A stretch of DNA of 35,447 nucleotides. It comes from a virus. This document shows, piece after piece, positions 11,572 to 34,140 of the stretch. The notes beneath the pieces were generated by a model that saw only the letters and a program-made list of their open reading frames with translations, searched no databases and was not told the origin of the DNA. The stretch spans positions 1 to 35,447 of IMG/VR virus record IMGVR_UViG_3300017735_000041; one strand, given 5' to 3'. A program made the translations under genes and the position numbers. The first letter of the stretch is position 1. Each line of letters begins with the position of its first letter.

Positions 11572-11577
11572 TTACAC
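11572..11577 (-). promoter_or_regulatory. GTGTAA element before tape measure gene
   Basis: GTGTAA preceded by AAAATA, 11 nt before the tape measure ATG. The spacing is longer than the 8 nt seen at five other genes. No Shine-Dalgarno sequence is present. Confidence 0.5.
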
Positions 11578-11598
11578 TATTTTATCGGCATTTCTTAA

Positions 11599-12570
11599 TC
11601 AAAGTCCATGCATCTCAACCATATCTTTCATATTTAATGAGCCACCCTTCTTTTTTATTGCATCTCCTAGCGTGATGGCGTTTTGATCTTTATCTTTTAA
11701 GTGAGCAATATCATCCTTATTGGCTCCAAAATAAGTCGTAGCATCTGATTCTCCTGCGCTTTTGCCTTCTTTTTCTGTTTTTTGGCTATTATAGAAATCT
11801 ATCAATAGGTCTGGATCCTTTGCAATATGATCTGGTATATCCTTTTGAGAGTTTTTGAAAATATTTAAAAAGCTTCTCGAGTAGCTTATCATCTTCAATT
11901 GAAATGCTGTCAAATTTTTTAAAGGTTCTCCAAACATATTAATAACATCTTCGGAATAAGGCATGTATGGGCCAAAAAAGGGAGACAACACAGCCTTCGA
12001 TATGTTCCCGTCATTCATTCTGTTGAAGAACTGGCCCTCTAAATCTGCGAGCTCTTTGGCTGTTTCAATGTCTTGATAATCTAAGTCGTCAAATGGAGAT
12101 GTCTTAAATTCCTCATCTAAAAATAAAAGACTTTCAAAAAAATCTTTATTGACTTTTCTTTCTGCGTATTTTTCTGCCGTAAGCCCAACAAGTTTCTCCC
12201 TTTCAAAAGATAGTTTGTTTAGTTTGCTAATTTCTAAATCTATTAGCTTTGAGTGTTCTTTTCTTTTTGATGGTAATACAATTTTAGATAAAGAGGTTTT
12301 TAAATTTTCTATAAATTTCTTTTTATCTTGTATCTCTTTTTCAGATTCGTCATCCCACATGTCATCCTCAATTAGCATTTTTAAAATACTTTTTTCGGCC
12401 AACAAGCCTCTTTCTTCGGCTTCAGCTATATATAGTTTTCGTTTACCTAGTATTTTTCTTGTATCTAATTGATGAAAGTGCTTAATATAAATTGGACCTA
12501 AACTAGAATTCAAAACACTAAAACCTTCAAAAACCTCAACAATGATGTCGGCTAATTCATCGTTATCCAC
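11599..12570 (-). CDS. Putative tail assembly chaperone (second of pair)
   Basis: A 323-residue, mostly helical and charged protein directly upstream of the tape measure gene, the position held by lambda gpG/gpGT and equivalents. Landmarks are YIAEAEERGLLAEKSIL, a basic stretch LPSKRKEHSKLI, and REKLVGLTAEKYAERK in the middle. The only usable start near the 5' end is a GTG at 12570, inside the end of the previous gene; the AGAGG before it touches the start codon and is too close to act normally. The first internal ATG codon is about 65 residues in. The frame is +1 relative to the upstream gene and opens just after a stop, so production by programmed frameshift from the previous gene is an alternative. 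No catalytic motif is seen. The chaperone role rests mainly on position. Confidence 0.5.
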   Translation of the reverse strand: MDNDELADIIVEVFEGFSVLNSSLGPIYIKHFHQLDTRKILGKRKLYIAEAEERGLLAEKSILKMLIEDDMWDDESEKEIQDKKKFIENLKTSLSKIVLPSKRKEHSKLIDLEISKLNKLSFEREKLVGLTAEKYAERKVNKDFFESLLFLDEEFKTSPFDDLDYQDIETAKELADLEGQFFNRMNDGNISKAVLSPFFGPYMPYSEDVINMFGEPLKNLTAFQLKMISYSRSFLNIFKNSQKDIPDHIAKDPDLLIDFYNSQKTEKEGKSAGESDATTYFGANKDDIAHLKDKDQNAITLGDAIKKKGGSLNMKDMVEMHGL

Positions 12571-13300
12571 CCTCTTGTTGCTTTAAAAATTCTTCTATAT
12601 CTTTTTCGCTTGATTGATTGTTGTAAAACCAATAAGACACAACAAGCATTAGTTTGTTTAAGGCTTCTTTTTCAAAGTCTTCGCCATCTTCATCCTTCTC
12701 ATATAAATTATTAAGTTGATCCTCATATATAAGTCCATTAAAAAAGCTTTTTTCTTCACCCTCTTCAATGATTACGCCAAGCTGTACAGCGTACCACAAT
12801 AACATTGACCTTTCAGCCCTGGCGTCAGCAGTATGTTCGTATACACTCTGAACAGACATTTCTACGTCAATTAAATTTTTTCTAATTTGGACAAGTTCTA
12901 GTTCTAATTCTTCTATTTCTTTTTTATTTTTTTTCTTATCTGTCGCAGATAGCATTTGAATCTTGTTTGTGATTTCATTGCTTCTTTGAAGTTTTCTAAG
13001 AGTATCCTTAGTCTCTTCTTCGGTTAGGCTCCCCCCAGTGTCAGCATATTTTTTTACAAGCATATCCTTTGTAACAATACCCTTTTTGATATTCTTACTA
13101 AGTTCGATCGCGTACTGAGCCTCAGCTTCATCAACAATACGGCGGCTTGGCTTTTTAATTACAAATTCAACTGGAGTTTTAACCGTCTTGTTTTGCAAGA
13201 TAGTTTCTGTTTCACCAGTTTCTTTATTTTTGCGGTTAACCTCTACCTGCTTTTTTTCGCTCTTGTTTACCTGAAATTTATAAATATACTTTGTTTTCAT
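12563..13300 (-). CDS. Putative tail assembly chaperone (first of pair)
   Basis: A 245-residue charged protein. The N-terminus (about 1-55) reads as beta strands with many lysines and a VEFVIKKPSRR segment; residues 55-150 are helical with probable coiled coil (KKNKKEIEELELELVQIRK); the C-terminal third is acidic and ends EEFLKQQEGG. It precedes the second chaperone-like gene with an 8-nt overlap and lies two genes upstream of the tape measure, as gpG-type tail chaperones do. The ATG at 13300 follows an AT-rich leader without a Shine-Dalgarno sequence, shortly after the end of the small gene at 13305. No enzyme motif is visible. If a frameshift joins it to the next frame, the fusion would be about 565 residues. 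The function is inferred from position. Confidence 0.5.
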   Translation of the reverse strand: MKTKYIYKFQVNKSEKKQVEVNRKNKETGETETILQNKTVKTPVEFVIKKPSRRIVDEAEAQYAIELSKNIKKGIVTKDMLVKKYADTGGSLTEEETKDTLRKLQRSNEITNKIQMLSATDKKKNKKEIEELELELVQIRKNLIDVEMSVQSVYEHTADARAERSMLLWYAVQLGVIIEEGEEKSFFNGLIYEDQLNNLYEKDEDGEDFEKEALNKLMLVVSYWFYNNQSSEKDIEEFLKQQEGG

Positions 13301-13304
13301 GATT

Positions 13305-13595
13305 TTAATTTTTAAATCTAAATTCTACTGTTAGATTTTCAACTTCATTATTATAATCCCTCAATACAGAATTTCCATTATCTAAAACCCTTTTTCTGTA
13401 GGCTTGAAAATGGTCTTCATCAAAATAATCAGCCATTTCAATAATGCTGTGATATTCTTTCGGCAGGTTATCATATAACTTTCCAAAGTTAATTTCGTGG
13501 TGAGACTGCAAGTCCTCCAGAGTGTTCAAAAAAGATTTGAACAGAAAACGGATATAGTAATCCGACCTATCATTTAAAAAATCCTGAGCTTTCAT
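13305..13595 (-). CDS. Small unknown protein heading the tail unit
   Basis: A 96-residue protein I do not recognise. It is helical and aromatic-rich (SDYYIRFLFKSFLNTLEDL near the start, EMADYFDEDHFQAYRKRV in the middle) and ends in a strand, LTVEFRFKN. No membrane segment or metal site is visible. It is the first gene of the minus-strand tail unit. GTGTAA lies 19 nt upstream of its ATG, as one half of an inverted repeat whose other half serves the divergent gene at 13641. The AAGGA before the ATG is adjacent to it and too close for normal use. Its place next to the chaperone genes suggests tail assembly, but this is a guess. Confidence 0.6.
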   Translation of the reverse strand: MKAQDFLNDRSDYYIRFLFKSFLNTLEDLQSHHEINFGKLYDNLPKEYHSIIEMADYFDEDHFQAYRKRVLDNGNSVLRDYNNEVENLTVEFRFKN

Positions 13596-13614
13596 TCCTT
13601 ATTCCCAGCATTAT

Positions 13615-13632
13615 TTACACAAAAAAGTGTAA
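13615..13632. promoter_or_regulatory. Divergent GTGTAA inverted repeat
   Basis: TTACAC at 13615-13620 and GTGTAA at 13627-13632 form an inverted repeat with six A between. The rightward copy is 8 nt before the ATG at 13641; the leftward copy is 19 nt before the ATG at 13595. It appears to serve both transcription directions. Confidence 0.6.
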
Positions 13633-13640
13633 AAGTAGAC

Positions 13641-14120
13641 ATGGCCACTTCTCTCATTTCAGACTCCCAGAAAACTGCTATCAAATCAATCATCGACGAT
13701 ATACACGAAACATTTGCTAGAAATATCACTGTATATAAAGATGGTGTAAAAATTTTAATAGCATCTAGCCAGGAATATAACGGAATATATGGTAAAACTT
13801 ATTCTGGAGAATCTAGCACATCTACCACCTCTGAATCTCACACTGTTAAAGCTAGAATAAAATATATAAATGCCAATGAAGAATCAATGTCGGACGGACA
13901 AATAAATAGTCAATTTGGTATAGAAGTAATAGATGGTTCCGTAAGAATTACCGTAGATGCGTCTGGTTTCAATATTTTAAAAGAAGCAAAAAGGTGTGAA
14001 TTTGAGGGCGGAAAGTACAAGATAGTCACAAAAGGAAATCCTACTGGTATATTTGGGCCCCAGTACTATCATTTTTATTTACAGCCAATTGAGGAACTCC
14101 AAGACGCACCCACATCATAA
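13641..14120 (+). CDS. Putative head-tail connector (neck) protein
   Basis: A 159-residue protein, first of four plus-strand genes leading to the tail tube. The N-terminal 25 residues look helical; the rest is beta-rich, with a serine/threonine-rich loop (GESSTSTTSESH) followed by VKARIKYIN and a C-terminal half containing GSVRITVDASGFNILKEAKR. The size and beta-barrel-like pattern suit head-closure or stopper proteins of siphoviruses, and the position just before two other neck-type genes agrees. There is no sequence motif that proves it. The start is supported by GTGTAA exactly 8 nt upstream; no Shine-Dalgarno sequence is present. Its stop TAA overlaps the next ATG as TAATG, implying translational coupling. 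Confidence 0.5.
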   Translation: MATSLISDSQKTAIKSIIDDIHETFARNITVYKDGVKILIASSQEYNGIYGKTYSGESSTSTTSESHTVKARIKYINANEESMSDGQINSQFGIEVIDGSVRITVDASGFNILKEAKRCEFEGGKYKIVTKGNPTGIFGPQYYHFYLQPIEELQDAPTS

Positions 14121-14707
14121 TGGCCCTTGATTTAAAAATTGTAGCCGACCTAAAAAAACAAGCGCCAAGGATACTTAGGAACGAAATACAAAAAAGAGGT
14201 AGGGCGGCTTTTCAGAAGATTAAAAATCAAATGATTGCCGAGTTTTTGAATCATCCAGTCACTATAGAGATAAAACAAGGAGTAGATGCCAAAAATATTA
14301 GTGGCACTTTGGGCGGATCAACTAACCTGTATTCATTTATAGGATTTGAAGATTCCTCAGAAGACCCCACAAAGAGCATAGAAAATATTTTACAAGAAAC
14401 TAATTTTGAATTTGTCACACTCAAGGGCAACTCAATTGAATTTTCTATTTACATACCAGACGCGAAAGACGTATTTGATGTTACCCCCATGCCTTGGGCC
14501 ACTGGAAGAAGTTGGGCGAAAGGTATAGAAACGGGTATATCTGGATTGGGTTATTATTTGAGAGTAAAAAGAGAAAACAGTAGATCTGGGCTTGGGATAC
14601 AATCACCAAGAAAAGTTAGAAAAAATGGATCACAATTCAAAAACATTCAATACATATCTGCCCTCCTCAATAAATACAAAAAACAATTTATAAATTTAAC
14701 TATATAA
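14120..14707 (+). CDS. Putative tail completion / neck protein
   Basis: A 195-residue basic protein. A long N-terminal helix (KKQAPRILRNEIQKRGRAAF) is followed by a beta region with GTLGGSTNLYSFIGF and then PMPWATGRSWAKGIETG, and ends in a lysine-rich helix. The helix-then-sheet plan recalls HK97 gp10-type tail completion proteins, and I associate the GTLGG...LYSFIGF pattern with neck proteins of uncultured marine phages; both are judgements from memory. The start overlaps the previous stop. The gene is followed after 16 nt by the next gene, which carries its own GTGTAA element. Neck role is moderately likely. Confidence 0.5.
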   Translation: MALDLKIVADLKKQAPRILRNEIQKRGRAAFQKIKNQMIAEFLNHPVTIEIKQGVDAKNISGTLGGSTNLYSFIGFEDSSEDPTKSIENILQETNFEFVTLKGNSIEFSIYIPDAKDVFDVTPMPWATGRSWAKGIETGISGLGYYLRVKRENSRSGLGIQSPRKVRKNGSQFKNIQYISALLNKYKKQFINLTI

Positions 14708-14709
14708 TA

Positions 14710-14715
14710 GTGTAA
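14710..14715 (+). promoter_or_regulatory. GTGTAA element before gene at 14724
   Basis: GTGTAA ends exactly 8 nt before the ATG at 14724. A TATAAT sequence (14703-14708) overlaps the end of the preceding gene immediately upstream. No Shine-Dalgarno sequence is present. Confidence 0.55.
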
Positions 14716-14723
14716 ATACCTCT

Positions 14724-15584
14724 ATGAAACCGCAATATCACCACGAATTAATGACCAGCTTTCTCTTGTGGTTTGATCACGAGCTGCTTCAAAAGGGTGA
14801 AGCCTATTCAAATAAGACTGGAACACTCTTTTCAAAATCAGATAGCAGGGTGCCAAGTTCTTGGACGCCGCTTCAAAGCAACTACAAACAATGGGTTAAC
14901 GATTCTTCGGTAACTGGCGAAGTAAACCCAATTATTGCTAATCCAAACTCAATCTTAAATGCTGGTTCTCAATTAAATAGGTCAGAATATATTTATGATT
15001 ATGAAAATGGAAGAGTTTTGCACACTGGTGCGGGCGAAGCCGCCAACGTAACAGGAACTTTTGCCGTAAAAGATTTTAATATATACCTGACTAACGATAC
15101 AGAAGAAGACTTAATCATAGAAAATAAATTCACATTGAATAGCAGATATGGAACACCCACTATAAAAGGCTTAGAGCCTTACGATCAAATGGTTCCAGCT
15201 ATATTCTTAAACTGCGAGTATATGAGAAATGAGGGCTTTGCCTTTGGGGGAGAAGATAAAACAAACAATTCTATTAAGGCTGTTGTTCTCGCTGAAAACG
15301 AATATCAATTAGATGGTTCCTTGTCTATCTTCGCAGACTCTGTCAGAAAATCTTTTGCAAAAATACCCTTTTCTTCCCACCCCTCAACGGAATATGGCGA
15401 CGTAAAAAACGGCTCTTATAGTTATTCATCCCTAAGGGACACATACCTTCAAAGCAACCCATATTTCATTGACGACGTCACCGTTTCTAAACTTTCACAA
15501 AAACCACAATCCTCCCTGCCTGGCGACATAAAAGTCGGGTTCATTGATTTTGAGGTATCTACAGTAAGATATCCTAGATCATAA
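14724..15584 (+). CDS. Putative neck / tail terminator protein
   Basis: A 286-residue protein between two neck candidates and the tail tube gene. The N-terminus has a helix with an aromatic motif, LLWFDHELLQKGEAYSNKTG, then WTPLQSNYKQWVNDSSVTG. The middle contains a strand-rich segment (GTFAVKDFNIYLTNDTEED), and the C-terminus ends in a strand, KVGFIDFEVSTVRYPRS. There are no catalytic or membrane features. A position immediately before the major tail protein is typical of tail terminator or adaptor proteins in siphovirus gene order, and the same N-terminal pattern is familiar from uncultured marine phages. The start is supported by GTGTAA at 8 nt. The role is inferred from context. Confidence 0.5.
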   Translation: MKPQYHHELMTSFLLWFDHELLQKGEAYSNKTGTLFSKSDSRVPSSWTPLQSNYKQWVNDSSVTGEVNPIIANPNSILNAGSQLNRSEYIYDYENGRVLHTGAGEAANVTGTFAVKDFNIYLTNDTEEDLIIENKFTLNSRYGTPTIKGLEPYDQMVPAIFLNCEYMRNEGFAFGGEDKTNNSIKAVVLAENEYQLDGSLSIFADSVRKSFAKIPFSSHPSTEYGDVKNGSYSYSSLRDTYLQSNPYFIDDVTVSKLSQKPQSSLPGDIKVGFIDFEVSTVRYPRS

Positions 15585-15604
15585 TTTCACAATCAAACAA
15601 ATAA

Positions 15605-15617
15605 ACTGTAAACAATA
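15605..15617 (+). promoter_or_regulatory. ACTGTAAACAATA element before tail tube gene
   Basis: This 13-mer is identical to one at 21057-21069 on the minus strand, before an internal ATG of the protease-scaffold gene. Its CTGTAA core, a one-base variant of GTGTAA, lies 15 nt before the ATG here and 14 nt before the other. Both ATGs are followed by G. It may mark a variant promoter for highly made structural proteins. Confidence 0.5.
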
Positions 15618-15626
15618 TAAAATATC

Positions 15627-17021
15627 ATGGCTAAAAATAGAGTTATTTATCAATCCGACGCGCTGTTCGCGAGTAAATCAGTAGATTCTACTGGTATAAA
15701 CGATCACGAACAACTTCGCAGAGTACAATCTGCTAATTATTCACTAAACATCACTCGCCAAGACGTGAACCAATTTGGTCAGCTTGCTAGACTCGAAGCT
15801 ATTATTCTTGAGGCTCCGACAGTATCCTTTGACATGTCTTACTATCTTGGAGATGGATACAACGAGCAAGTCCTTAATTTCTTAAATAGTACTGGCCTTG
15901 ACGGCGGCTTTGTATCTGGACAAATTGCCTCATCAAGTGGCCAAAATTTCTACATTTTGACGGCTCCAGAAGGGGTAGACGCAAACTTTGATCCATCTTC
16001 TGCTGACGCTTCAGGCGGCTACAACACAATCGGTATTGGAAACGCTTTCCTTACCGACTACAGTCTAGAAGCTTCCGTGGGCAGCATTCCAACAATTTCC
16101 GCTTCTTTTGAAGGCACAAACATGAATGCGACCGCAGGCGTATCTGGTACATCTGCAGGTTATTCTGGTATTGAGGGTGTTGGTATTGATCCCACACTCG
16201 GAACAGCTCTACCAAATCAAGCCGTCTCTGGCTTCACTGGTGATGGCTTTACTGGTGTAGGTGTCGTTCTTCCAGTTGGCAATCAAGCTATTGGAGCAAA
16301 TATTCCTACGGCTCTTCGCCCAGGAGACATTTCTTTATCACTTGGTAATGCAGATGGCGACGCTTTTGTCGACCTTGATGGTGGAGGCTCAGCTCACGTT
16401 CAAAGTATATCGATTTCAATTCCTCTCGGTAGAACTCCTATCGACAAGCTTGGATCTCGCTTCTCTTTTGCGCGTGTTGTTGATTTCCCAATCACTCCTA
16501 CACTCGCTGTTTCTGCAATCGTTTCCGACACGCAGGGCGCGGCCCTTACTGATATTATTAACGATGACCAATTTATTACTGATCTTCAGTTTACATTTAA
16601 GGATTCAGATTCAAGCAATACCCCAAGAGCATCGTACAAGCTTACTAATCTAAAGCTTGATAGCCAGTCATTCAGCTCTAGTATTGGTCCCAATAAGACC
16701 GTTGACTTGAACTTCTCACTGTCAATTGGTGGACCAAATGACGATGTCAATAATGTGTTCTTCTCTGGTTCGAACGTCAATACACCTTTTGACGGAACCG
16801 CTCCTGTAATTACTCTGGTTGGCAACGCTACTATTAACCTCTCAGTAGGTGACGCGTATTCCGAGCTCGGTGCGACAACAGATGACGGTACCGCTGTGGT
16901 AATTGATTCGAGTGCTGTTGACACGAGCGTTGCTGCCACTTACACAGTTACTTACAACGCAACTGACGCAGCTGGTAATGTGGCCACCGAAGTTACAAGA
17001 AGTATTGTAGTTTCTGCTTAA
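15627..17021 (+). CDS. Major tail tube protein with C-terminal Ig-like domain
   Basis: A 464-residue virion protein, probably the building block of the tail tube. Residues 1-200 form the first tube-like unit (NYSLNITRQDVNQFGQ, then FLTDYSLEASVGSIPTISASFEG). Residues about 240-385 form a second (SISIPLGRTPIDKLGS, then LKLDSQSFSSSIGPNKTVD), as in the three related proteins of this window. Residues about 392-464 are an added Ig-like domain of the DUF5011/HYR type (APVITLVGNATINLSVGD, then TYTVTYNATDAAGNVA), of the kind displayed on virion surfaces. It is the last gene of its unit and is followed by a strong terminator. Gene position after the neck genes supports major tail protein. The ACTGTAAACAATA element upstream suggests high expression; no Shine-Dalgarno sequence is seen. 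Confidence 0.75.
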   Translation: MAKNRVIYQSDALFASKSVDSTGINDHEQLRRVQSANYSLNITRQDVNQFGQLARLEAIILEAPTVSFDMSYYLGDGYNEQVLNFLNSTGLDGGFVSGQIASSSGQNFYILTAPEGVDANFDPSSADASGGYNTIGIGNAFLTDYSLEASVGSIPTISASFEGTNMNATAGVSGTSAGYSGIEGVGIDPTLGTALPNQAVSGFTGDGFTGVGVVLPVGNQAIGANIPTALRPGDISLSLGNADGDAFVDLDGGGSAHVQSISISIPLGRTPIDKLGSRFSFARVVDFPITPTLAVSAIVSDTQGAALTDIINDDQFITDLQFTFKDSDSSNTPRASYKLTNLKLDSQSFSSSIGPNKTVDLNFSLSIGGPNDDVNNVFFSGSNVNTPFDGTAPVITLVGNATINLSVGDAYSELGATTDDGTAVVIDSSAVDTSVAATYTVTYNATDAAGNVATEVTRSIVVSA

Positions 17022-17066
17022 TACTTTAGGGTGGAGCGAATAGCTAAGAAGCCCTTCTAATTTACA

Positions 17067-17094
17067 AAACCCCCTCATTCGAGGGGGTTTTTTT
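17067..17094 (+). terminator. Strong terminator after tail tube gene
   Basis: A perfect 10-bp stem (17067-17076 with 17081-17090), ATTC tetraloop and T-tract. It lies between convergent genes; its A-rich left flank could give weak leftward termination as well. Confidence 0.9.
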
Positions 17095-17163
17095 ATGCAC
17101 AAAAAAGCGCAACCCGCATACAGTGGTCACGCTATTGTAAATCAGTATTTAGCTATCTTAGTC

Positions 17164-17604
17164 CTAAGACTCAATTCCACCAACTTGACGTGGGCTTGAC
17201 TGGTAACTGTTGTAATTCGTCACTAATACCGAGAAGGCGTCATAAGAGTCCTGAGCGAGGCTTTTGTAGACTTTGGACACTTCATTCTTATTAACAAACG
17301 TAATGGCGTTATCACCGTCTCTGACGCTTACAATGTTGCCATTTGTATCGTCAGCTATTCCACGAATAGTTTTTCGTGTTTGTTTCATATAATAATGATA
17401 TAAATACATCTCTTTATAGATGCTCTCTTCTTCTAGACCAAATCCAGATATATGCCCACTATCTCCAGAGAAACTAGTATAAAGTACATTATTTAACTGC
17501 CCAAGGTTATTATCAAGCCATCCAGAAATAGATGCTTCAGACACTCCAACAGAATCAAATTCATTTACAAAAATAGAATTAGCTAAATTTCCTATCGTCG
17601 ACAT
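17164..17604 (-). CDS. Putative head-tail adaptor protein
   Basis: A 146-residue, mainly helical protein, last in the head unit. The N-terminal half carries SISGWLDNNLGQLNNVLYTSF and the middle EESIYKEMYLYHYYMKQTRK, two helices with conserved aromatic residues; I associate this pattern with the neck or adaptor position of uncultured marine phages. The size and helical content suit HK97 gp6-type adaptors that sit below the portal. The start ATG at 17604 follows the stop of the SAP-like gene by one base, so translation is probably coupled. It ends close to the convergent terminator at 17067-17094. No metal or catalytic site is visible. The assignment is moderate and rests on size, fold guess and position. 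Confidence 0.45.
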   Translation of the reverse strand: MSTIGNLANSIFVNEFDSVGVSEASISGWLDNNLGQLNNVLYTSFSGDSGHISGFGLEEESIYKEMYLYHYYMKQTRKTIRGIADDTNGNIVSVRDGDNAITFVNKNEVSKVYKSLAQDSYDAFSVLVTNYNSYQSSPRQVGGIES

Positions 17605-17605
17605 T

Positions 17606-17872
17606 TTAAGTATTATCTAAAATATTTTTAATTAAGTCCGTCTTTCGTCTTGGGCTATCAATACCCAGTCTCGAACATATTGCTTTTAGTTCTGACGTGC
17701 CTTTTGTTCTCAAGTCCGACTCAGAATATTTAGGTTTTGTTGGTGTGGGCTCAACAGCAACAGGCTGTTTTGCTGGTTTAGCAATCTTTTTTTTAGCTTT
17801 CTTGGCAGCCTTTTTCTTGGCTGGTCTTTCTTTGCCGTCAGCTATGATTAAGTCGTTTAGTATGTCATCCAT
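17606..17872 (-). CDS. Small lysine-rich protein with SAP domain
   Basis: An 88-residue protein. The middle is a lysine/alanine-rich linker (KKKAAKKAKKKIAKPAKQP) and the C-terminal 35 residues match the SAP fold, a two-helix DNA-binding motif: TSELKAICSRLGIDSPRRK with the L-x-x-L-C/G-I-x-x-x-G/R-x-K-x-x-L-I pattern. The basic linker plus SAP would bind nucleic acid, so a role in packaged DNA or head completion is possible. There are two candidate ATGs; I chose 17872 rather than 17881, because GTGTAA then lies exactly 8 nt upstream as in four other genes, while at 17881 the start codon would overlap the element. It is followed by the adaptor-like gene after one base. Confidence 0.6.
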   Translation of the reverse strand: MDDILNDLIIADGKERPAKKKAAKKAKKKIAKPAKQPVAVEPTPTKPKYSESDLRTKGTSELKAICSRLGIDSPRRKTDLIKNILDNT

Positions 17873-17880
17873 ACATAACA

Positions 17881-17886
17881 TTACAC
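17881..17886 (-). promoter_or_regulatory. GTGTAA element before SAP gene
   Basis: GTGTAA, preceded by a T-rich run, ends 8 nt before the ATG at 17872. Its last base is shared with the ATG at 17881, which argues for the downstream start. The element lies in the 33-bp gap behind the gene at 17906. Confidence 0.5.
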
Positions 17887-17905
17887 AAAAAAAGACGGCA
17901 AAAGC

Positions 17906-18496
17906 TTAACCTCTCTTAAGATATTCCTGCCTTAGCGCTGACATCAATCTAATTCTGTCGTAACTTGGAGTAAATCCAAGCTTCATCGCCATCTCTTGCA
18001 ATTCCGATAGAGTCTTGCCCTTCAGGTTTTCTTCAAAATCTGAAATAGAATCAGAAGCTAAAACCGCTGCCTTTTCTGCTGTTCTCCCACCAGTAGATCC
18101 CCAGTTTGACGATCTCCACTCATGAAATGCTTTGACCAGTGATTCGTCTTGCAAATCTTGATCAGCAAATACTCTAGCCGCAACTCTATGTGCTAGATGA
18201 GCTTTTTGCGAATAGTTCATATTTTCCAGCTTTCTTTTAAATACTCTGGTATCGTTTGTGCCAAATGGAGAAATTTTATCAGCTCCCATCAATTTTTCTT
18301 CAGCTTCTTTCTCGTCAATTTCGTCCCTCTCTTTGCCGTCTGCGTAACTTAATTTATCCATGGGATCTACCTCATTGGAGTTCTGAATTTCTTCATTATT
18401 GACTTCGTCATTTTCAATAGCTGCGGTGATATCCGATTCAACAAATTCTTCCTTCAAATCGTGAAGGTTTTTGCTTTCTTTAATTTCTTCTTCCAT
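17906..18496 (-). CDS. Acidic protein with C-terminal SAP-like domain
   Basis: A 196-residue protein directly after the major capsid gene. The first 75 residues are very acidic (MEEEIKESKNLHDLKEEF at the start). A middle helical segment follows, MNYSQKAHLAHRVAARVFAD. The last 35 residues resemble a SAP-type helix pair: KTLSELQEMAMKLGFTPSY, then DRIRLMSALRQEYLKRG. The neighbouring 88-residue protein has the same kind of C-terminus, so the two may be related or act together. The ATG at 18496 has no Shine-Dalgarno sequence and no GTGTAA nearby, and a terminator separates it from the capsid gene, so its promoter is not obvious. It is possibly a head completion or DNA-binding head protein; this is inference. 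Confidence 0.55.
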   Translation of the reverse strand: MEEEIKESKNLHDLKEEFVESDITAAIENDEVNNEEIQNSNEVDPMDKLSYADGKERDEIDEKEAEEKLMGADKISPFGTNDTRVFKRKLENMNYSQKAHLAHRVAARVFADQDLQDESLVKAFHEWRSSNWGSTGGRTAEKAAVLASDSISDFEENLKGKTLSELQEMAMKLGFTPSYDRIRLMSALRQEYLKRG

Positions 18497-18561: not shown

Positions 18562-18580
18562 AAATTTGTAATGATCGTTA

Positions 18581-25608: not shown

Positions 25609-25614
25609 TTACAC
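25609..25614 (-). promoter_or_regulatory. GTGTAA element before portal gene
   Basis: GTGTAA after an A-tract, 25 nt before the portal ATG, in the 57-bp gap behind TerL. A TATAAT sequence lies between it and the ATG. The 25-nt spacing is the same as at the fibre gene at 34166. Confidence 0.45.
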
Positions 25615-27491: not shown

Positions 27492-28405
27492 CTTTCCTCC
27501 TTATCTAAAAAATATTGCACGTCTACGTCCCATAACTTTTTGCCCAAGAAAAGTAGTTTAGGTATTATTTCTTCGCTATGTTTCCTGCCATCTGTGAAAA
27601 CAAATTGACAATTCTCAGCGAATTCGTGTTGTACAGAAATTAAATTAGAAAACACCCAACCTAGTTTTGGGGCCCTTCTCCCTTTAGTAAACACAGCTTC
27701 TTTTTCTATTGCTTTAAGAGATTTTTCTACAACGATATACATGTAGCTATCCAGTTCGACGCATCTTTCCATCTCTCTCCTAAATCTATCCACTTGCCCG
27801 CCAAAAGTTGATAAGAAATCACCAGCGCTTTTTCTATCCACAAATGTATTAGTAAAATCATTTCCACCTAAAGTATAATCACCAAAATCTAACTTTAAAA
27901 TTGAAGATCTCTCAAATTCTAATGGCTGTTGCTCTCTAGTATCGATAAGAACTTCGACATCTACACTACTATTAAATTCCTTAGGCATGCCCTTGTGGAA
28001 TATGGGTTTTGCGCCCATGGCCTCACAAGCTTTAGTATATGTGCCGAAGTGTTTTTTGTAAATATCTAAGTCTGGCAATTGTCGCTTGAGAAGCTCTAAA
28101 TAAAAGGGTGCGTTTTTGTATTTCTTTCTTTCAATTCTTTTTTTACCTAGGTCAAGGATGTAGTCCTTAACTTCTTGATCTGGCGCAGACTCACACCACT
28201 TTACTAGTTGTGATCTATTAATAAAATCATTTGTAAAGTATTCATCCTTCTTCTTAAAAGGCAAAGGGTTACCATTTAACTTATTAAATCGTGGATAATG
28301 TTTAACATAATAGTCAGCCACATACATCTTATGTGCCTTAAGATGAGCATGAAGACTTTTTTCTGTCTCGAACTCGACTCCACATTCTTTACATTTATAA
28401 GACAT
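27488..28405 (-). CDS. C2H2 zinc finger - ERCC4 nuclease fusion
   Basis: A 305-residue protein. Residues 3-25 form a classical C2H2 finger (C5-x2-C8-x12-H21-x3-H25, YKCKECGVEF). Residues 26-145 are a basic helical linker. Residues about 150-240 form an ERCC4/XPF-type nuclease: LIDTREQQP (153-161), GDY (175-177) and DRKSAGD (190-196), which is the G-D-x(n)-E/D-R-K-x3-D active site. Such nucleases cut branched or flap DNA. The start at 28405 is preferred over a TTG at 28423, because the TTG would only add six residues within the previous gene. It overlaps both neighbours and directly precedes TerL, so packaging or resolution of replicating DNA before packaging is likely. The enzyme family is secure; its substrate is not. 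Confidence 0.8.
   Translation of the reverse strand: MSYKCKECGVEFETEKSLHAHLKAHKMYVADYYVKHYPRFNKLNGNPLPFKKKDEYFTNDFINRSQLVKWCESAPDQEVKDYILDLGKKRIERKKYKNAPFYLELLKRQLPDLDIYKKHFGTYTKACEAMGAKPIFHKGMPKEFNSSVDVEVLIDTREQQPLEFERSSILKLDFGDYTLGGNDFTNTFVDRKSAGDFLSTFGGQVDRFRREMERCVELDSYMYIVVEKSLKAIEKEAVFTKGRRAPKLGWVFSNLISVQHEFAENCQFVFTDGRKHSEEIIPKLLFLGKKLWDVDVQYFLDKEER
27496..27502 (-). promoter_or_regulatory. Strong Shine-Dalgarno site for TerL
   Basis: AAGGAGG, 4 nt before the TerL ATG. It shows that the host ribosome uses standard Shine-Dalgarno pairing, which makes its absence at the GTGTAA-headed genes notable. Confidence 0.75.
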
Positions 28406-29441
28406 CTTCAATACCGATACCAAGAACGCGAGCTTTCCAAGCCGCCATGCCCTCTAATTTTTTAGCTTCTTCTCTAATTACTTCCTTTTGCATTTCAGCA
28501 ATACGAACAATATTTTTTCTCTCTTCTTCTTCCTGGAACAACTGGACGATAGCAAGAAACGACGCAGTTTCTTTTTGTTTATTCGCTAATCTTGCTCCAC
28601 GATCTCCCTGAAGTTTTTTTGTCAAGTTTTCAATGCGAGTCTCACATTGATGATATTCTGAACTTTTAGCCTTAATAATTTCCGCTAAGCGAACTGTCAT
28701 TTCATCCTGGTCGTCGGCACTCTCAAACATGTCATTCAGTTTTTGTAAGTGGCCAGTAATTAACTCAAGATTAATTATTTCTTTGGCGACATTCATGTAT
28801 AAATTTAATTCGTCTGCAGTAAGATCGGGCTTGTCCCAAGTCAATCTAATAAATTCTTGCTCAAACAACTCTTTGTCTCTATGACTCGTATAGTTATTTA
28901 CAATAGCAACAAATCTTGAGTTGTTAAGGTTGACCCTTAGCTTATCACAGCAATGTTTTTGATTTCGAGACATTCTACTTTCTTCCAGCCCGAAACCAGT
29001 TGAGTCATTAATTTTTTTAATAATTCTGGAAACTGCTTGGGGTGCAATGTAGTTACCCGCAGAGTCTTCTCCTCTATCTTTTTCTTGCTCTTTTTCTTCG
29101 TTAACTATTTCATTTACAGCTCTCCACTCCTTGGACAGTCTTGTTATCTTAGTCTTAAATACAATATCTGCTATTTCTGAAGTATTTAACTTATCGTTTT
29201 TTAATTCTTTAATTTTTTCTATTTGACTTTCGGTCAGAGTTACGTCTTCCGTTTTGTCTCTTTTCGTCGTTTTAGCCTTCAAACCATTTTCTGCTAGGAA
29301 TTTAGTAACAGCTCTGCCTTCTTTAGATCTTCCATCAAGGGCATCATCCTCAAAAACAATCTTAGTAATGTTTAGAATATTTGCTTCTTCTTGAAATATT
29401 TCTAAAATTCTATCCTTTTGATCTTCGGTTAAATTAATCAT
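28395..29441 (-). CDS. Helical DNA-binding-like protein, possible small terminase
   Basis: A 348-residue protein. The N-terminus holds two copies of a helix-turn-helix-like unit: residues about 4-52 (LTEDQKDRILEIF, ITKIVFED, SKEGRAVTKFL) and about 68-115 (LTESQIEKIKELK, IADIVFKT, SKEWRAVNEIV). The rest is helical, with a CC pair near residue 165 and a C-terminal coiled coil rich in Glu, Lys and Arg. Two DNA-binding units plus helical oligomerisation fits terminase small subunits, and it lies two genes before TerL; a transcription regulator tied to the sigma gene is the alternative. The start is supported by AAGGA 6 nt upstream, within the sigma gene, and the ATG overlaps the sigma stop as ATGA. 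The function is unproven. Confidence 0.5.
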   Translation of the reverse strand: MINLTEDQKDRILEIFQEEANILNITKIVFEDDALDGRSKEGRAVTKFLAENGLKAKTTKRDKTEDVTLTESQIEKIKELKNDKLNTSEIADIVFKTKITRLSKEWRAVNEIVNEEKEQEKDRGEDSAGNYIAPQAVSRIIKKINDSTGFGLEESRMSRNQKHCCDKLRVNLNNSRFVAIVNNYTSHRDKELFEQEFIRLTWDKPDLTADELNLYMNVAKEIINLELITGHLQKLNDMFESADDQDEMTVRLAEIIKAKSSEYHQCETRIENLTKKLQGDRGARLANKQKETASFLAIVQLFQEEEERKNIVRIAEMQKEVIREEAKKLEGMAAWKARVLGIGIEDVL

Positions 29442-30109
29442 ATTATGTCCTTTTCGATAATTATTTGCTTGGCTTTTTGTTGAAAAATTTTTTTAAGATT
29501 TTTTATTTGCTTATAGCCAGCAGATCTTTTCTTTTCGTTAGTTTTGAATCCTAAATACTTTGCAATTTGTTCGTCGGTACTGTTCTCTATGAACATCATT
29601 TTAAATGCACGAAAATGCCTCTTACTAAGATGAGGTTCCATCTCTGCTGACAATTTTTCTGTCGCAGATTCTAAATTCAAAAAACCATCCTTTTGAGCAT
29701 TGACTTCATTTATATGGCCCTCCATGGTAACAGCGAGTTTTATGTCGTAAGCAGCTTTCTTCTTCATGGACCACTGTTTAAAGTCTTCGCAAGATTCGTT
29801 TTGAATTCCATTCGCTGTTTTCGAGCAGCCGTCTCCACCGTTATTAAATTTGCATTGCAGACACGGTCTTACATAATTTCCATAATGGTTTCTTAATAAG
29901 TTTTTAAATTGGTTAGAAACTACCCTACTTAACCAGGGTTCTATAGGTTTTGATTGATCCCACAAATGCCACTTTTTGTAGATGTGAGTCATAATTATTT
30001 GTTTTATGTCATCGTAATCTATATAAGCTACCGCATCCAAATTCCATTTTGCTCTTTTTCTTTCTACCGCCGCATTAATTTCTTTTATCTTATCTTCAAA
30101 ATCATACAT
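29438..30109 (-). CDS. Phage sigma-70-like factor (late sigma, gp55-like)
   Basis: A 223-residue protein that should direct host RNA polymerase to phage promoters. Residues 30-75 match sigma region 2: YDDIKQIIMTHIYKKWHLWD, then PIEPWLSRVVSNQFKNLLR, which resembles the -10 recognition helix of ECF and T4 gp55-type factors. Residues 83-107 hold four cysteines (C-x2-C-x8-C-x11-C), a probable zinc site inserted after region 2. The C-terminal part (158-205) has LSKRHFRAFKMMF and STDEQIAKYLGFKT, a region-4-like helix-turn-helix, with basic residues at the end. Coupled starts link it to a zinc-ribbon gene before and a helix-turn-helix gene after. The family match is good; the gp55-like label reflects size and phage context, not a search. 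Confidence 0.72.
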   Translation of the reverse strand: MYDFEDKIKEINAAVERKRAKWNLDAVAYIDYDDIKQIIMTHIYKKWHLWDQSKPIEPWLSRVVSNQFKNLLRNHYGNYVRPCLQCKFNNGGDGCSKTANGIQNESCEDFKQWSMKKKAAYDIKLAVTMEGHINEVNAQKDGFLNLESATEKLSAEMEPHLSKRHFRAFKMMFIENSTDEQIAKYLGFKTNEKKRSAGYKQIKNLKKIFQQKAKQIIIEKDII

Positions 30110-30432
30110 TATAGGTCATCAATTTTTTTGATAGAAATTTCTCTTCTCTTGGGGCTTGACTTGCCGCCTAAAGAACCTATAGTTTGTTGCATTGAAGCAC
30201 CAAAATCTTCAAGCTCGTATTCTAGCTTTGATATATTTGGTATATTGCTGGCGTCAGTGTAGCCCTCAGAATCTTCAGAAGATTTTGAAATCTTGGCTGA
30301 CGCTTCCGCGCGCGCGGGTTCAACTTTTTTAGATTCACCACCTTTTAAATTTGCTCCACAACTAGGACAAAAATTTGGAGGATTGAATTTATATTCGAGC
30401 TTAGTGCCACATTCAAAACAAAATTTATTCAT
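30109..30432 (-). CDS. Zinc-ribbon protein next to the sigma factor
   Basis: A 107-residue protein. Residues 5-26 form a zinc ribbon with two C-x2-C knuckles (FCFECGTK and FCPSCGAN). The remainder is low-complexity, Ser/Ala/Glu-rich, with a short acidic helix (KLEYELEDFGASM) and a C-terminal strand-like tail REISIKKIDDL. The gene ends in TAATG, shared with the sigma gene start, so translation is coupled and the two proteins may work together, for example as a small transcription cofactor comparable in place to T4 gp33. The latter is speculation. The start ATG at 30432 has an AT-rich leader without Shine-Dalgarno sequence. Confidence 0.6.
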   Translation of the reverse strand: MNKFCFECGTKLEYKFNPPNFCPSCGANLKGGESKKVEPARAEASAKISKSSEDSEGYTDASNIPNISKLEYELEDFGASMQQTIGSLGGKSSPKRREISIKKIDDL

Positions 30433-30460
30433 AACTTATATTAAATCAAAAAATATTTTT

Positions 30461-31156
30461 TTAAATATTATCTTCTAGTTTTTTAACTATGAACTTTAGG
30501 ATTTCACTTCTTTTAATGTCTTCGTAACCAAACTCCGTGCAAATAATTCCATTTTCTTTTGATTCTTCGTCGTTGAAAGTATTAAATATTTTATTAAATC
30601 CACTTTGTTTTATATCGGCTTGCGTCATATCTCCGCAGATTATTATTTTTGAATCTTCGCCAATTCTCGTAAGCACAGTCATTAATTCGTTGTAAGTAAA
30701 ATTTTGAGCTTCGTCTATTATAACAATTGTGTCATTCCAGTTTGATCCTCTAACAAAATTAACTGGCATGCATTGGAATTGATTTTTATCGCGAAGTGCC
30801 TTTATATCCGAAGTATGAAGCATCTCGTCCATCTTATCATAAAAAGGTCCAGCAAAAACCCCGAACTTTTCATCAATTGATCCAGGGAGCGATCCAAGGC
30901 TTTTTTGCGAGCTTTCTGCTATGCTTCTAACATACAGTATGTCTTTTTCCAAGTTAGAGTTCATCATAACCTGTAAAGCCGAGTACACGGCCATATAAGT
31001 CTTGGCTGTACCAGCTGGCCCAGATAAAAACATTAATTTAGTTTTATCTTCTAGGGTATTTTTTAAAAAATCAATCTGGTTCTGAGTGAATTTAAATTTA
31101 CGTTCCTTGAACCTTATTCTTGGGTTCAACTGGTTGAATTCAAGTTTATTAGGCAT
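30461..31156 (-). CDS. phoH: PhoH-like ATPase
   Basis: A 231-residue P-loop ATPase of the PhoH family. The Walker A motif is GPAGTAKT (46-53) and the Walker B motif is VIIDEAQ (145-151); the helicase-like pattern ICGDMTQAD near 180 and the arginine-rich GSNWN segment before Walker B fit the family. PhoH genes are widespread in phages, especially marine ones; their proposed links to phosphate stress or RNA handling are unproven. The length is close to PhoH2-less, PhoH-only phage forms. It lies between a tube-like gene (11 nt upstream) and the zinc-ribbon/sigma group, so it may be transcribed from the promoter at 32025. The start is the ATG at 31156; no Shine-Dalgarno sequence is seen. Confidence 0.85.
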   Translation of the reverse strand: MPNKLEFNQLNPRIRFKERKFKFTQNQIDFLKNTLEDKTKLMFLSGPAGTAKTYMAVYSALQVMMNSNLEKDILYVRSIAESSQKSLGSLPGSIDEKFGVFAGPFYDKMDEMLHTSDIKALRDKNQFQCMPVNFVRGSNWNDTIVIIDEAQNFTYNELMTVLTRIGEDSKIIICGDMTQADIKQSGFNKIFNTFNDEESKENGIICTEFGYEDIKRSEILKFIVKKLEDNI

Positions 31157-31167
31157 TTAAGCTTTTT

Positions 31168-32016
31168 TTATTTTAACAATTCTGTAATAGTCAATGAACC
31201 TCTCGCTAAGTCGCCACCAGCGATAGAAATATTTTCTGAAGTTATTCTTCCATTGATATTGGTTGAAAAAATCTCATCGAGTTTGGAATTTTTTACAGTC
31301 ATTGATAAATTTCCAGGATTTGAACCAGTCAAAGGTACTAGAGCCTGTATGTTATCTCCCCTAATTGAAATATTTTGCTCCGCCGTCACTAGCTCTACAA
31401 CAGTGGGGTTATATGATCCAATTTCGTAAACTGGTAAACGATTTGCATTAAATTGATATTGGATTGTTTCAAATACTGAAATATCATTTAAAGGCGATCC
31501 ACCAAATGTAGAATAAGCTCCATGCCCGTAATCTGCAAAATTCAAAGCCTCGATAATAGAATCTTCTTCTTCCACAATCTTACCTCCAGCACTAGATATA
31601 GTCAGAGGATTGTAAATAGCAAAATCACATTGAACTAAAACTGGAGAATAGGGTGCTAGCGTATAAGAGAAAGAAGTAAGAAAAGCTCCACTACCAGATA
31701 TTCCGCTTGTGGCGTCACCTAGTCGAAAAGCCGCTCCAGTATCACCTACGTCACCTGTGAAGTCGGTTGGGTTAAATTCTCCAGTGCTTACATAACAAGA
31801 AAAAGAAAGAGAAGAATTAGGGGGCCCAGCAAGATTAAAATTATCTCTAGTTGGGGTTTTTCCCAAAAGCCTTACTGGCGCTATATTTGGCGTATAGTTG
31901 AGTTGAACCTGTTCACAGAACACTCCCGAATTGTTTCCGTCTACACTATCTGGTAATGTGCTACTATTTACTCCTCCAAAATACAACGGTACGTCCTTAT
32001 ATGATATATATGCCAT
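31168..32016 (-). CDS. Tail tube-like protein (282 residues)
   Basis: A beta-rich protein sharing the two-unit plan of the tail tube protein at 15627. The first unit has CEQVQLNYTPNIAPVRLLGK and then FLTSFSYTLAPYSPVLVQCD; the second has VTAEQNISIRGDNIQALVP and ends with ITSENISIAGGDLARGSLTI, the counterpart of the strand that closes each paralogue. There is no extra C-terminal domain. It may form a minor tube ring, a tail terminator or a portal-proximal tube protein; the sequence does not decide. GTGTAA lies exactly 8 nt before the ATG, after an A-tract. It is followed by PhoH after 11 nt, so this promoter could feed the whole PhoH-sigma-TerL group. Confidence 0.55.
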   Translation of the reverse strand: MAYISYKDVPLYFGGVNSSTLPDSVDGNNSGVFCEQVQLNYTPNIAPVRLLGKTPTRDNFNLAGPPNSSLSFSCYVSTGEFNPTDFTGDVGDTGAAFRLGDATSGISGSGAFLTSFSYTLAPYSPVLVQCDFAIYNPLTISSAGGKIVEEEDSIIEALNFADYGHGAYSTFGGSPLNDISVFETIQYQFNANRLPVYEIGSYNPTVVELVTAEQNISIRGDNIQALVPLTGSNPGNLSMTVKNSKLDEIFSTNINGRITSENISIAGGDLARGSLTITELLK

Positions 32017-32024
32017 AAATTTTA

Positions 32025-32030
32025 TTACAC
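32025..32030 (-). promoter_or_regulatory. GTGTAA element before 282-residue tube-like gene
   Basis: GTGTAA after an A-tract (six A), exactly 8 nt before the ATG at 32016. No Shine-Dalgarno sequence is present. A further leftward GTGTAA is found at 32168-32173 within a GTGTTACAC palindrome. Confidence 0.55.
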
Positions 32031-32068
32031 TTTTTTGCTATCTATTGGAATTGGTTTTATAAACGAAG

Positions 32069-32111
32069 AAGCCCCGAAATCCTTATTCTGGACTTCGGGG
32101 CTTAAATTTTT
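32069..32111 (+). other. Orphan hairpin in a divergent intergenic region
   Basis: A 10-bp GC-rich stem (32069-32078 with 32094-32103), an A-C mismatch, three more pairs and a 7-nt loop, followed by AAATTTTT. It looks like a plus-strand terminator, but no plus-strand gene lies upstream for 15 kb. The rest of the 212-bp gap (32017-32228) holds no gene; from 32112 to 32164 I see nothing recognisable. Confidence 0.6.
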
Positions 32112-32214
32112 GTACAAGAGCTAGCGAAACACGCCACGCGATTAAGCTAATGGAACGTGAAAAGTGTTACACTTATAATTAATAAAAAAGAAAAAAAAAA
32201 TTAAAAAGGAAAAA

Positions 32215-32220
32215 GTGTAA
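32215..32220 (+). promoter_or_regulatory. GTGTAA element before gene at 32229
   Basis: GTGTAA after a run of A, exactly 8 nt before the ATG at 32229. The 50 bp upstream are almost pure A/T, and a TATAAT lies at about 32175. An AAGGA some 16 nt before the ATG is too distant for normal Shine-Dalgarno use. Confidence 0.55.
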
Positions 32221-32228
32221 AGTAATTC

Positions 32229-33023
32229 ATGGCAGTAGAAGGATCTCACGAAGAACATGTAATAATAAATGGAACTCTATTGCAGGGGGTTTCAAATACC
32301 TCATTTGAACAGAATGTAGAAGAACAGCCCGTTTCTATGGTTGGTAAAGATTTTGCTGGCAAAACAACCACAGGGCCGACTCAAGTCACAGCCGCAATCG
32401 ATAAGTATCTTTTGAATAACGACTTTGTAACGACTTTAACGGGACTCACTGATATTTCTGGACAATTCGAATATGGGGATAATCTTCTTGATTTCTCTCA
32501 AGCGGTTATAAATGGATATGCAGTTTCTACGGCTGTCGGAAGTTTACCAGAAATATCTTTTGACTTATCTATATACGGAAGTTTGAGTGGCGGTGGCACA
32601 TCAATTAGATCGCTAGCATCAGATGAAAGCGCAGTAGAAAATGTTTCTCAATCAGGACTAATTGTTACTTTTGATAAAAATCAAACAAACGCTGTACAAT
32701 CCTTTAATTTTTCTGAAACTTTTAATGTTGTGCCAACGTATGGATTGGGGCAGAAAACGCCAGCAGATATTTCTATTGTCGGCCCCATCGTTCAAGAGGC
32801 TAGTATATCTATAGAAGTTGAAGATTACGAAGTAGAAGAAACGTTTTCTTTTTTAAGTGGTTCCAAGGATAGATCTAGAAACATTGAGTTAAAGATCAGT
32901 GGCGACAATGGTATATTAAATACCTTCTCATTGCAAAATGGATGCTTGGCCAGCGAATCTATAGTCTCCAACGCTGGTAATACTACGACAGCTCAGTTGA
33001 CTTATAGAGGGTACAGAACTTAG
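32229..33023 (+). CDS. Tail tube-like protein (264 residues)
   Basis: A beta-rich single-gene unit related in plan to the tube-like proteins at 2043, 15627 and 31168. The first unit runs from VSNTSFEQNVEEQPVSMVGK to VINGYAVSTAVGSLPEISFD, matching FLTDYSLEASVGSIPTISAS in the tail tube protein. The second has VQEASISIEVEDYEVE and ends with CLASESIVSNAGNTTTAQLT, the closing strand pair. It lacks any extra domain. The likely role is a tube or tail-associated virion protein; the function is inferred from similarity inside this window. The GTGTAA element is 8 nt upstream. Its stop codon overlaps the end of an extended reading frame from the convergent gene at 33104. Confidence 0.55.
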   Translation: MAVEGSHEEHVIINGTLLQGVSNTSFEQNVEEQPVSMVGKDFAGKTTTGPTQVTAAIDKYLLNNDFVTTLTGLTDISGQFEYGDNLLDFSQAVINGYAVSTAVGSLPEISFDLSIYGSLSGGGTSIRSLASDESAVENVSQSGLIVTFDKNQTNAVQSFNFSETFNVVPTYGLGQKTPADISIVGPIVQEASISIEVEDYEVEETFSFLSGSKDRSRNIELKISGDNGILNTFSLQNGCLASESIVSNAGNTTTAQLTYRGYRT

Positions 33024-33103
33024 TAATCAAAAAATGTAAATGATGCAGTTGTTGGTGCGGTATCAGGAGGATAGTCATAATTTATAAAAAACTCCAAAAA
33101 TAC

Positions 33104-34093
33104 TTAAGAATCGTAAGTAAAATAAGAAACATCCAATGAAGAAAGGTTAAGAGTAAAGCCTGGGGTAGTATAGGATTCAGTTGACCCGAAAACTGAGGCA
33201 AATCCCGCGTTTGTTGAAGGGTTCCAAGGTGCGTAGGCGTAGTAGGTGAAATGATCTCCACCCCAAGCCCAAGTCCATGAGTTGGGGCTATTACTATTCT
33301 GGAGATAAGCATCAGTATATTTGGGCAGTGCTGTAACTGAATGTCTAGCTTTTGAAACTCTAAGTATGGGGAACGGGGAAGATTCCGCTTGTACGTTAAT
33401 TACAGCGGCATTTTGTGGCTGAGATCCTAGATTGTATATAATACCATTTGGATCTTCTGGATAGCCGAAATCGTAAGAAGTATAGCTCACGGATCCATTA
33501 GCTCTTTGAAAGTGGTCTATGTTCTCATAGTTTGGGCCACTCAAATATCCATTACTGAAAGTATGATAGTACCCTCTCATTTTAACAAAATCTTTAAGTC
33601 CGTATCCAATAAAATTATCAGGGTTAGTGGTTGCTCCGTTATACATAGCTGCAATGAAAACGTTTGTTCCGCCAGAAGTCTTCACCTCGCCAAAAGAACT
33701 ATTATTATATTCCGCTCTACCTAAATCGTAATTATAATTATCACCTCCAAACCGCGAGTCTTGTGACCTCGTGCTTATTCTTTCTTTTGGTTGCGTTCCG
33801 TTTCCAAGGTCGTCGGCGGTAACGCTCCAATTTCCAGCTAGTCCATTAAACCTGCCATCATCTGCTTCAATAAATGTAGTCGCGCTACCCACCACCTCTA
33901 TTTTGTACAAATTCCAAAATATCTTCATAGCGTTAGCAAGAGAGAGCTTCTTTTCTGCGACGGTAGGCGGGGTCCCTTTTCTCGTCCCTCCTAGGGTCAT
34001 GTAATCATGAGCGCTTGATACATCTACGTTAAACATGGGAAACGGAAATCCGTTTCCCGCTCCTAGCGCTTTGAATGGTGTTGCTATCGGCAT
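33104..34093 (-). CDS. Unrecognised, probably structural protein
   Basis: A 329-residue protein I do not recognise. It is rich in Gly, Asn, Ser, Tyr and Phe, with few charged helices: features of tail fibre, baseplate or receptor-contact proteins. Landmarks are ATPFKALGAGNGFPFPM at the start, LANAMKIFWNLYKIEV near residue 55, and WTWAWGGDHFTYYAYAPWN near 285. It is a single-gene unit with GTGTAA 9 nt before its ATG. The annotated end is TAA at 33104, but the same frame continues for 27 more codons, reading FINYDYPPDTAP and ending SFTFFDY, to a stop at 33020 that overlaps the convergent gene's stop. That suggests a once longer protein, or readthrough. No cysteine or metal site is visible. Confidence 0.6.
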   Translation of the reverse strand: MPIATPFKALGAGNGFPFPMFNVDVSSAHDYMTLGGTRKGTPPTVAEKKLSLANAMKIFWNLYKIEVVGSATTFIEADDGRFNGLAGNWSVTADDLGNGTQPKERISTRSQDSRFGGDNYNYDLGRAEYNNSSFGEVKTSGGTNVFIAAMYNGATTNPDNFIGYGLKDFVKMRGYYHTFSNGYLSGPNYENIDHFQRANGSVSYTSYDFGYPEDPNGIIYNLGSQPQNAAVINVQAESSPFPILRVSKARHSVTALPKYTDAYLQNSNSPNSWTWAWGGDHFTYYAYAPWNPSTNAGFASVFGSTESYTTPGFTLNLSSLDVSYFTYDS

Positions 34094-34102
34094 ATCAATT
34101 AT

Positions 34103-34108
34103 TTACAC
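34103..34108 (-). promoter_or_regulatory. GTGTAA element before gene at 34093
   Basis: Leftward GTGTAA after an A-tract, 9 nt before the ATG. It shares the 72-bp divergent gap with two rightward copies. Confidence 0.5.
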
Positions 34109-34125
34109 TTTTTTTTGAGTCCTCA

Positions 34126-34140
34126 GTGTAATTAGTGTAA
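34126..34140 (+). promoter_or_regulatory. Double GTGTAA element before fibre gene
   Basis: Two copies, 34126-34131 and 34135-34140, nine bases apart, in AGTGTAATTAGTGTAA. The nearer copy ends 25 nt before the ATG at 34166, as at the portal gene. An AAGAGA-type purine run lies about 10 nt before the ATG and could serve as a weak ribosome-binding site. Confidence 0.45.

Follow-up and report, generated by a model that had tools for sequence, protein, structure and literature searches.

The hexamer GTGTAA, which precedes several genes of an uncultured virus at a fixed distance from the start codon, has its closest described counterparts among phage promoters with a single -10-like element and among the leaderless genes of phages and bacteria. 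The middle and late promoters that depend on gp36 of phiEco32 (tAATGTAtA) consist of one -10-like element with a TGTA core, have no -35 element and start transcription 6-8 bp downstream (PMC8948821). Middle and late mRNAs of the Thermus phage phiYS40 have been reported to be leaderless (PMC3594737). A -10 motif next to open reading frames (ORFs) drives leaderless genes in Deinococcus-Thermus (PMC12340547), and leaderless genes expressed from an ORF-adjacent -10 element are found in other bacteria also (PMC3160421). The DNA considered here is a stretch of 35,447 nucleotides (positions 1 to 35,447 of IMG/VR record IMGVR_UViG_3300017735_000041; hereafter the window). Judging by its sequence and that of its relatives, GTGTAA very probably forms the -10-like core of late promoters that are read by a phage sigma70-family protein and yield mostly leaderless mRNAs.

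Comparison with described systems

The system would share with that of phiEco32 a phage sigma factor, the use of host polymerase and a promoter made of one -10-like element that contains TGTA, with no -35 box. Genes for a dNMP kinase and PhoH lie near the sigma gene in phiEco32 also. However, the element here is GTGTAA, whereas the AATGTA sites of phiEco32 lie about 38-60 nt before genes, and phiEco32 starts carry Shine-Dalgarno (SD) sequences. The sigma protein described below was considered as a gp36 family member and rejected, having no detectable similarity (hhalign probability 0.1).

The late promoters of T4 (gp55/gp33/gp45) are likewise single elements serving structural genes, and TGTAAATA is one base off the T4 element TATAAATA. 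However, the T4 late sites are found 14-28 nt before the ATG of genes with SD leaders, and the element here is GTGTAA, not TATAAATA. Homology of the sigma protein to gp55 was also rejected (hhalign probability 0.6, no similarity). No DnaN-type clamp was found in six relatives, a T4 gp45-type clamp not having been searched for.

The likeness to phiYS40 lies in leaderless phage mRNAs and in a TTGACA signal 29 nt ahead of the ATG (at -35 from it) in a hexamer-by-spacing scan. The differences are that strong SD signals also occur at phiYS40 starts, and that the portions of its description considered here report neither a GTGTAA class nor a phage sigma. The bacterial leaderless genes are similar in having a -10 element a few nucleotides before the ATG at a fixed spacing, but they are cellular and use the housekeeping sigma with TANNNT, whereas here there is a phage-specific element in addition. 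We know of no earlier phage-specific late promoter for which a set distance from the start codon belongs to the element. None of the open-access papers searched describes the combination of a phage sigma, its own -10 element and a start-codon-locked spacing, beside a sigma70 class locked likewise, and a literature search for GTGTAA in phages yielded nothing relevant.

GTGTAA lies at a fixed distance from start codons

The number of GTGTAA copies in the window is not enriched. There are 17 where 13.5 are expected, and 18 of 100 shuffled sequences contain at least 17. It is the spacing that is not random: 5 of 32 starts have GTGTAA exactly 8 nt upstream (a gap of 8), with 0.008 expected per spacing (P = 2e-13 uncorrected, about 3e-8 after correction for 4096 hexamers and 36 spacings). 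The original prediction, made from the window alone, had drawn this same distinction between count and spacing, and the shuffles and the spacing statistics bear it out. It had listed five genes with a gap of 8 and others with gaps of 9, 11, 19 and 25 (the last for both the putative portal and the fibre gene), and every one of these positions is accurate (Table 1); the fibre gene has an extra copy at 34 nt. It was also right that the five 8-nt genes have no SD, unlike the gene with a gap of 19, which does carry one. Its statement that the element heads most transcription units holds for about ten starts but not for every copy. Six copies, at 2159, 13744, 16940, 19063, 23747 and 32167, are not closely before any start.

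Relatives were gathered via the terminase gene (the best 80 of 144 IMG/VR contigs; protein identity 86-100%), and the main statistics come from 20 related contigs comprising 1.43 Mb and 1566 ORF starts, called mechanically as the longest ORF. Scanning relatives had been proposed as a check, and the outcome was a sharp peak: GTGTAA is found at gap 8 before 106 starts, at gap 9 before 45, at gap 10 before 21 and at gaps 0-7 before seven altogether, against a background of about 0.3-0.5 per spacing. Orthologues inflate these raw counts; 48 gap-8 cases are left once look-alike genes are removed. The hexamer in the opposite orientation occurs 0-2 times at every spacing, with no peak.

Other sets of sequences give the same picture. 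Among 664 distinct leaders in a first set GTGTAA is at gap 8 in 71 and at gaps 0-7 in none, 13 records contain GTGTAA-N8-ATG 54 times and a reversed control once, and 16 of 18 further records, found via the sigma gene, contain the arrangement. The hexamer at gap 8 is nearly invariant, with GTGTAT (10 cases) and ATGTAA (three) the sole variants in any number. An unbiased scan of hexamers by spacing ranks GTGTAA at gap 8 as the top pair in most relatives (p 9e-25 in contig G017), whereas in the controls it returns SD-type or leadered signals (T4 and Microcystis phage MaeS) or SD signals (phiEco32).

The element has the architecture of a leaderless promoter

GTGTAA takes the -10 position without a -35 box, and a profile of 60 leaders reveals the core, AT-rich flanks and a pyrimidine at -1 only. 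That pyrimidine is present in 56 of 60 gap-8 genes (93%) vs 51% of other genes (p 8e-12), which is consistent with initiation at Y(-1)A(+1); T at -1 occurs in 64% of gap-9 genes. None of 101 genes with gaps of 8-10 has an SD sequence vs 11% elsewhere. These genes follow intergenic gaps (median 18 nt), whereas others mostly abut their neighbor (median -1). At seven starts, in two gene families, a strong GC-rich terminator hairpin and T-run ends directly at the core. Barring terminator leak, the message must therefore begin within about 14 nt of the ATG.

That GTGTAA is a promoter is thus well supported. The original prediction had called it a phage-specific promoter core, and the single orientation, the location mostly at the heads of transcription units, the terminators directly before some copies, the -10 geometry and the presence of a phage sigma in relatives all speak for this. 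The leaderless reading goes beyond that prediction, as do the sigma factor and the second, sigma70-type class of promoters discussed below. The sequence features of leaderless genes are present, namely a -10-like element at a fixed short distance from the ATG and genes without SD. The spacing is probably fixed because the transcript most likely starts at the A of the ATG, so that one element would set both the transcription start and the start codon.

What if transcription instead begins a few nucleotides away from the ATG, so that the mRNAs carry very short leaders and are not truly leaderless? This is an unlikely alternative, but of those considered it survives best. Genes with gaps of 9-11 are common, and the sigma-dependent promoters of phiEco32 begin 6-8 bp past their element (PMC8948821). 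However, the gap-8 peak is sharp, and the pyrimidine preference at -1, with T still frequent there at gap 9, looks as if the start tracks the ATG.

A probable second class of promoters aligned to the same start

The second prominent signal in the hexamer-by-spacing scan is CTTGAC/TTGACA at 29-30 nt before the ATG. In the 20 contigs TTGAC[AT] occurs at gap 29 before 83 starts, at gap 30 before 28, at gap 28 before 18 and at few elsewhere. With the A of the ATG as +1, gap 29 places this hexamer at -35 to -30, and -10-like bases are found at -13 to -7. The base at -1 is a pyrimidine in 90% of this class, whose genes are mostly small and located away from the structural genes. The signal is that of putative host sigma70 promoters aligned to the start codon, with the -35 box in its textbook place. 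The entire phage lineage probably expresses its genes largely from leaderless mRNAs, with a host sigma70 class and a phage-sigma GTGTAA class that would both use the A of the AUG as +1.

Two further observations concern this class. One orthologous gene (49586 in contig G001; 40508-41476 in G017) combines TTGACT near -35 with GTGTAA near -10, as if it were read in both periods. In addition, genomes contain up to six copies of a GC-rich hairpin element of roughly 78 bp, placed between small TTGACA-class genes. Copies are 74-90% identical (for example L105 16043-16120, equivalent to G002 36043-36120, with others in G001, G003, G006 and G017). A search of Rfam found no match for it, nor for a conserved non-coding stretch of G002.

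A probable phage sigma factor is encoded in the relatives

Positions 47932-48489 of G001 encode a 185-aa protein of the sigma70 family. It matches the PHROG sigma factor family (PHROG 351) with E 1e-9 to 3e-12, 38 of its 39 profile matches in PDB are sigma factors, and all listed fold-search matches of its AlphaFold model are sigma factors. It was found in 22 contigs, with conserved residues throughout and invariant ones in the region-2 and region-4-like parts. The C-terminal part matches a transcriptional regulator family (PHROG 36) and its modelled helices match sigma factors, in both cases with weak E-values.

The gene order dNMP kinase, sigma, SSB, glycosyltransferase is found in G001 and G017, sigma adjoins the glycosyltransferase gene in 15 genomes, and all relatives covering the locus contain sigma. 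The window has this glycosyltransferase gene close to its start, so the sigma gene would be expected just past the left end, even if a terminator stands before the glycosyltransferase gene here. No contig extending the window to the left was found, and its own sigma gene is thus unseen. Of 14 genomes, 11 have a TTGAC/-10/ATG promoter at the head of the sigma operon, about 870-950 nt upstream; a GTGTAA promoter was not found within 2.5 kb. A sigma70-type head suggests the temporal order host sigma70, phage sigma, GTGTAA genes.

In the proposed mechanism, host sigma70 would make early leaderless mRNAs, that for the phage sigma (about 185 aa) among them. Its promoters (TTGACA, TATAAT/CATACT), one of which usually heads the sigma operon, would share the +1 of the GTGTAA class. 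The phage sigma, on host RNA polymerase, would then read GTGTAA to produce late leaderless mRNAs. Initiation 9 nt past the core would coincide with the A of the ATG in most GTGTAA genes, and the mRNAs would probably be translated by the 5'-terminal-AUG route.

Several observations weigh against this scheme. The Pfam match of the sigma protein (Sigma70_r2, PF04542; E 5e-4) is below the curated cut-off, the best Foldseek E-value of its model is 1.6e-3 at medium confidence (pLDDT 76), and the protein seems to keep a region-4-like helix-turn-helix even though a -35 box is not seen in the promoter. The sigma gene has been seen in relatives only, lying outside the window. No motif variation that tracks sigma was found, save for the GTGTAT of two divergent contigs, G028 and G031, so the link between sigma and motif rests on co-occurrence. 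Gaps of 18-25 nt mean that not all of the genes are leaderless. The leaderless start, the sigma-motif link and the timing are all inferred, whereas the motif, its spacing and orientation, the absent SD, the second class and the sigma gene with its operon head are seen in the sequence itself. Sigma has diverged most in G028 and G031 (42-46% identity), and these two use GTGTAT besides GTGTAA, which is a possible lead to covariation.

Perhaps the sigma-like protein is not what reads the promoter, and a phage RNA polymerase, or the host polymerase carrying an appropriated sigma70, does so instead. The missing -35 box, despite the region-4-like part of sigma, would fit. This is rather improbable, however, given that the sigma70-family protein is encoded at every spanned locus inside an operon with a sigma70-type promoter, and that G001 and G002 contain no convincing DFDGD-type polymerase motif (a T7-type polymerase was not searched for).

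If the proposed mechanism is correct, sequence alone would reveal where transcription starts, to which temporal class a gene belongs and which start codon it uses in a common uncultured phage lineage. It would offer a natural system in which transcription and translation start at the same base in many genes, and a defined sigma-promoter pair that could be tested in vitro without the host. It would also raise the question of how leaderless mRNA supports high-level translation of structural proteins in the host.

A translation signal or an operator is hard to reconcile with the data

The original prediction had named a translation signal as its alternative, that is, a non-SD ribosome-binding element in the mRNA at a fixed distance from the AUG. 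The fixed distance is real, presumably for the reason of the start point given above, and genes with the motif do lack SD. Nevertheless, this explanation is now disfavoured and very improbable. The motif clusters at genes behind intergenic gaps, not at tightly packed genes that are also without SD. In the two gene families with a terminator directly before the core, an upstream transcript would end before reaching it. The TTGACA class shares the same +1 yet has no such element. Lastly, the core persists at gaps of 18-25 nt, and the 96-aa gene has an SD sequence after its core.

Least credible of all is that GTGTAA is the operator of a DNA-binding regulator with palindromic sites, TTTACAC-N6-GTGTAAA (13614-13633) and GTGTTACAC (near 32165), since the inverted pairs, though real and conserved, are explained by divergent genes, and most sites are single, one-way and at one spacing, with no peak for the reverse hexamer.

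The back-to-back cores at 13614-13633 serve the divergent genes at 13595 (minus) and 13641 (plus). The arrangement is conserved (G001 29824/29831, G002 69409/69416), and two polymerases could not bind it simultaneously. A terminator and the 32229 promoter also flank a conserved non-coding stretch (window 32100-32228, G001 9850-9952, G002 49880-49975). In it, CCACGCG-TTAAGC is followed by AGTGTTACAC and a long A/G tract, with a minus-strand GTGTAA at 32167-32172; the stretch may encode a small RNA or act as a site on the DNA.

Features of the window and its phage group

Table 1. Promoter elements and associated genes in the window (G numbers are related contigs)
Feature	Position	Strand	Remarks
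GTGTAA core, gap 8 to ATG 13641	13627-13632	+	Same layout in G001, G002, G003, G007, G008, G011
159-aa gene, no SD	13641-14120	+	Putatively driven by core 13627-13632
GTGTAA core, gap 8 to ATG 14724	14710-14715	+	
286-aa gene, no SD	14724-15584	+	Putatively driven by core 14710-14715
GTGTAA core behind A-rich tract, gap 8 to ATG 32229	32215-32220	+	
264-aa gene, no SD	32229-33023	+	Putatively driven by core 32215-32220
GTGTAA core, gap 8 to ATG 32016	32025-32030	-	
282-aa gene, first of minus-strand run with PhoH, terminase and putative portal	31168-32016	-	17 relatives found
GTGTAA core behind T-run, gap 8 to ATG 17872	17881-17886	-	
88-aa gene	17606-17872	-	Putatively driven by core 17881-17886; weak Rho_N match (E 1.4e-4, below cut-off)
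GTGTAA core, gap 9 to ATG 34093	34103-34108	-	
329-aa gene	33104-34093	-	Putatively driven by core 34103-34108
GTGTAA core, gap 11 to ATG 11560	11572-11577	-	Gap 9 in G001 and G002 orthologues
Tail tape measure gene, 2005 aa	5543-11560	-	
GTGTAA core, gap 19 to ATG 13595	13615-13620	-	Back to back with 13627-13632; conserved in G001, G002
96-aa gene	13305-13595	-	Short leader with SD AAGGA between core and ATG
GTGTAA core, gap 25 to putative portal ATG 25583	25609-25614	-	Gap 18 in many relatives
Two GTGTAA cores, 34 and 25 nt ahead of fibre gene ATG 34166	34126-34131, 34135-34140	+	
TATAAT, 6 nt ahead of glycosyltransferase ATG 96	84-89	+	Candidate sigma70-type leaderless promoter; no TTGACA seen
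Glycosyltransferase	96-1187	+	Phage sigma gene directly upstream of orthologue in 15 relatives

The phage group is widespread, uncultured and, from the IMG/VR sets in which it occurs, apparently marine. A terminase search of 84,980 genomes for a host returned a single contig of 6.2 kb, all of it phage sequence and binned as Patescibacteria, which is too weak to name a host. This contig (L127), in a metagenome-assembled genome, is probably mis-binned and is the only host lead. No match to the capsid was found among known phages. The terminase is about 25% identical to those of known phages, and the putative portal is 24% identical to that of Microcystis phage MaeS, whose starts carry SD sequences instead. 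The fibre protein (window 34166-35446) has dockerin/EF-hand-like stretches, DIDNDGNVSSEIDVLLL and DINEDGIVGSDDI, that were spotted by eye.

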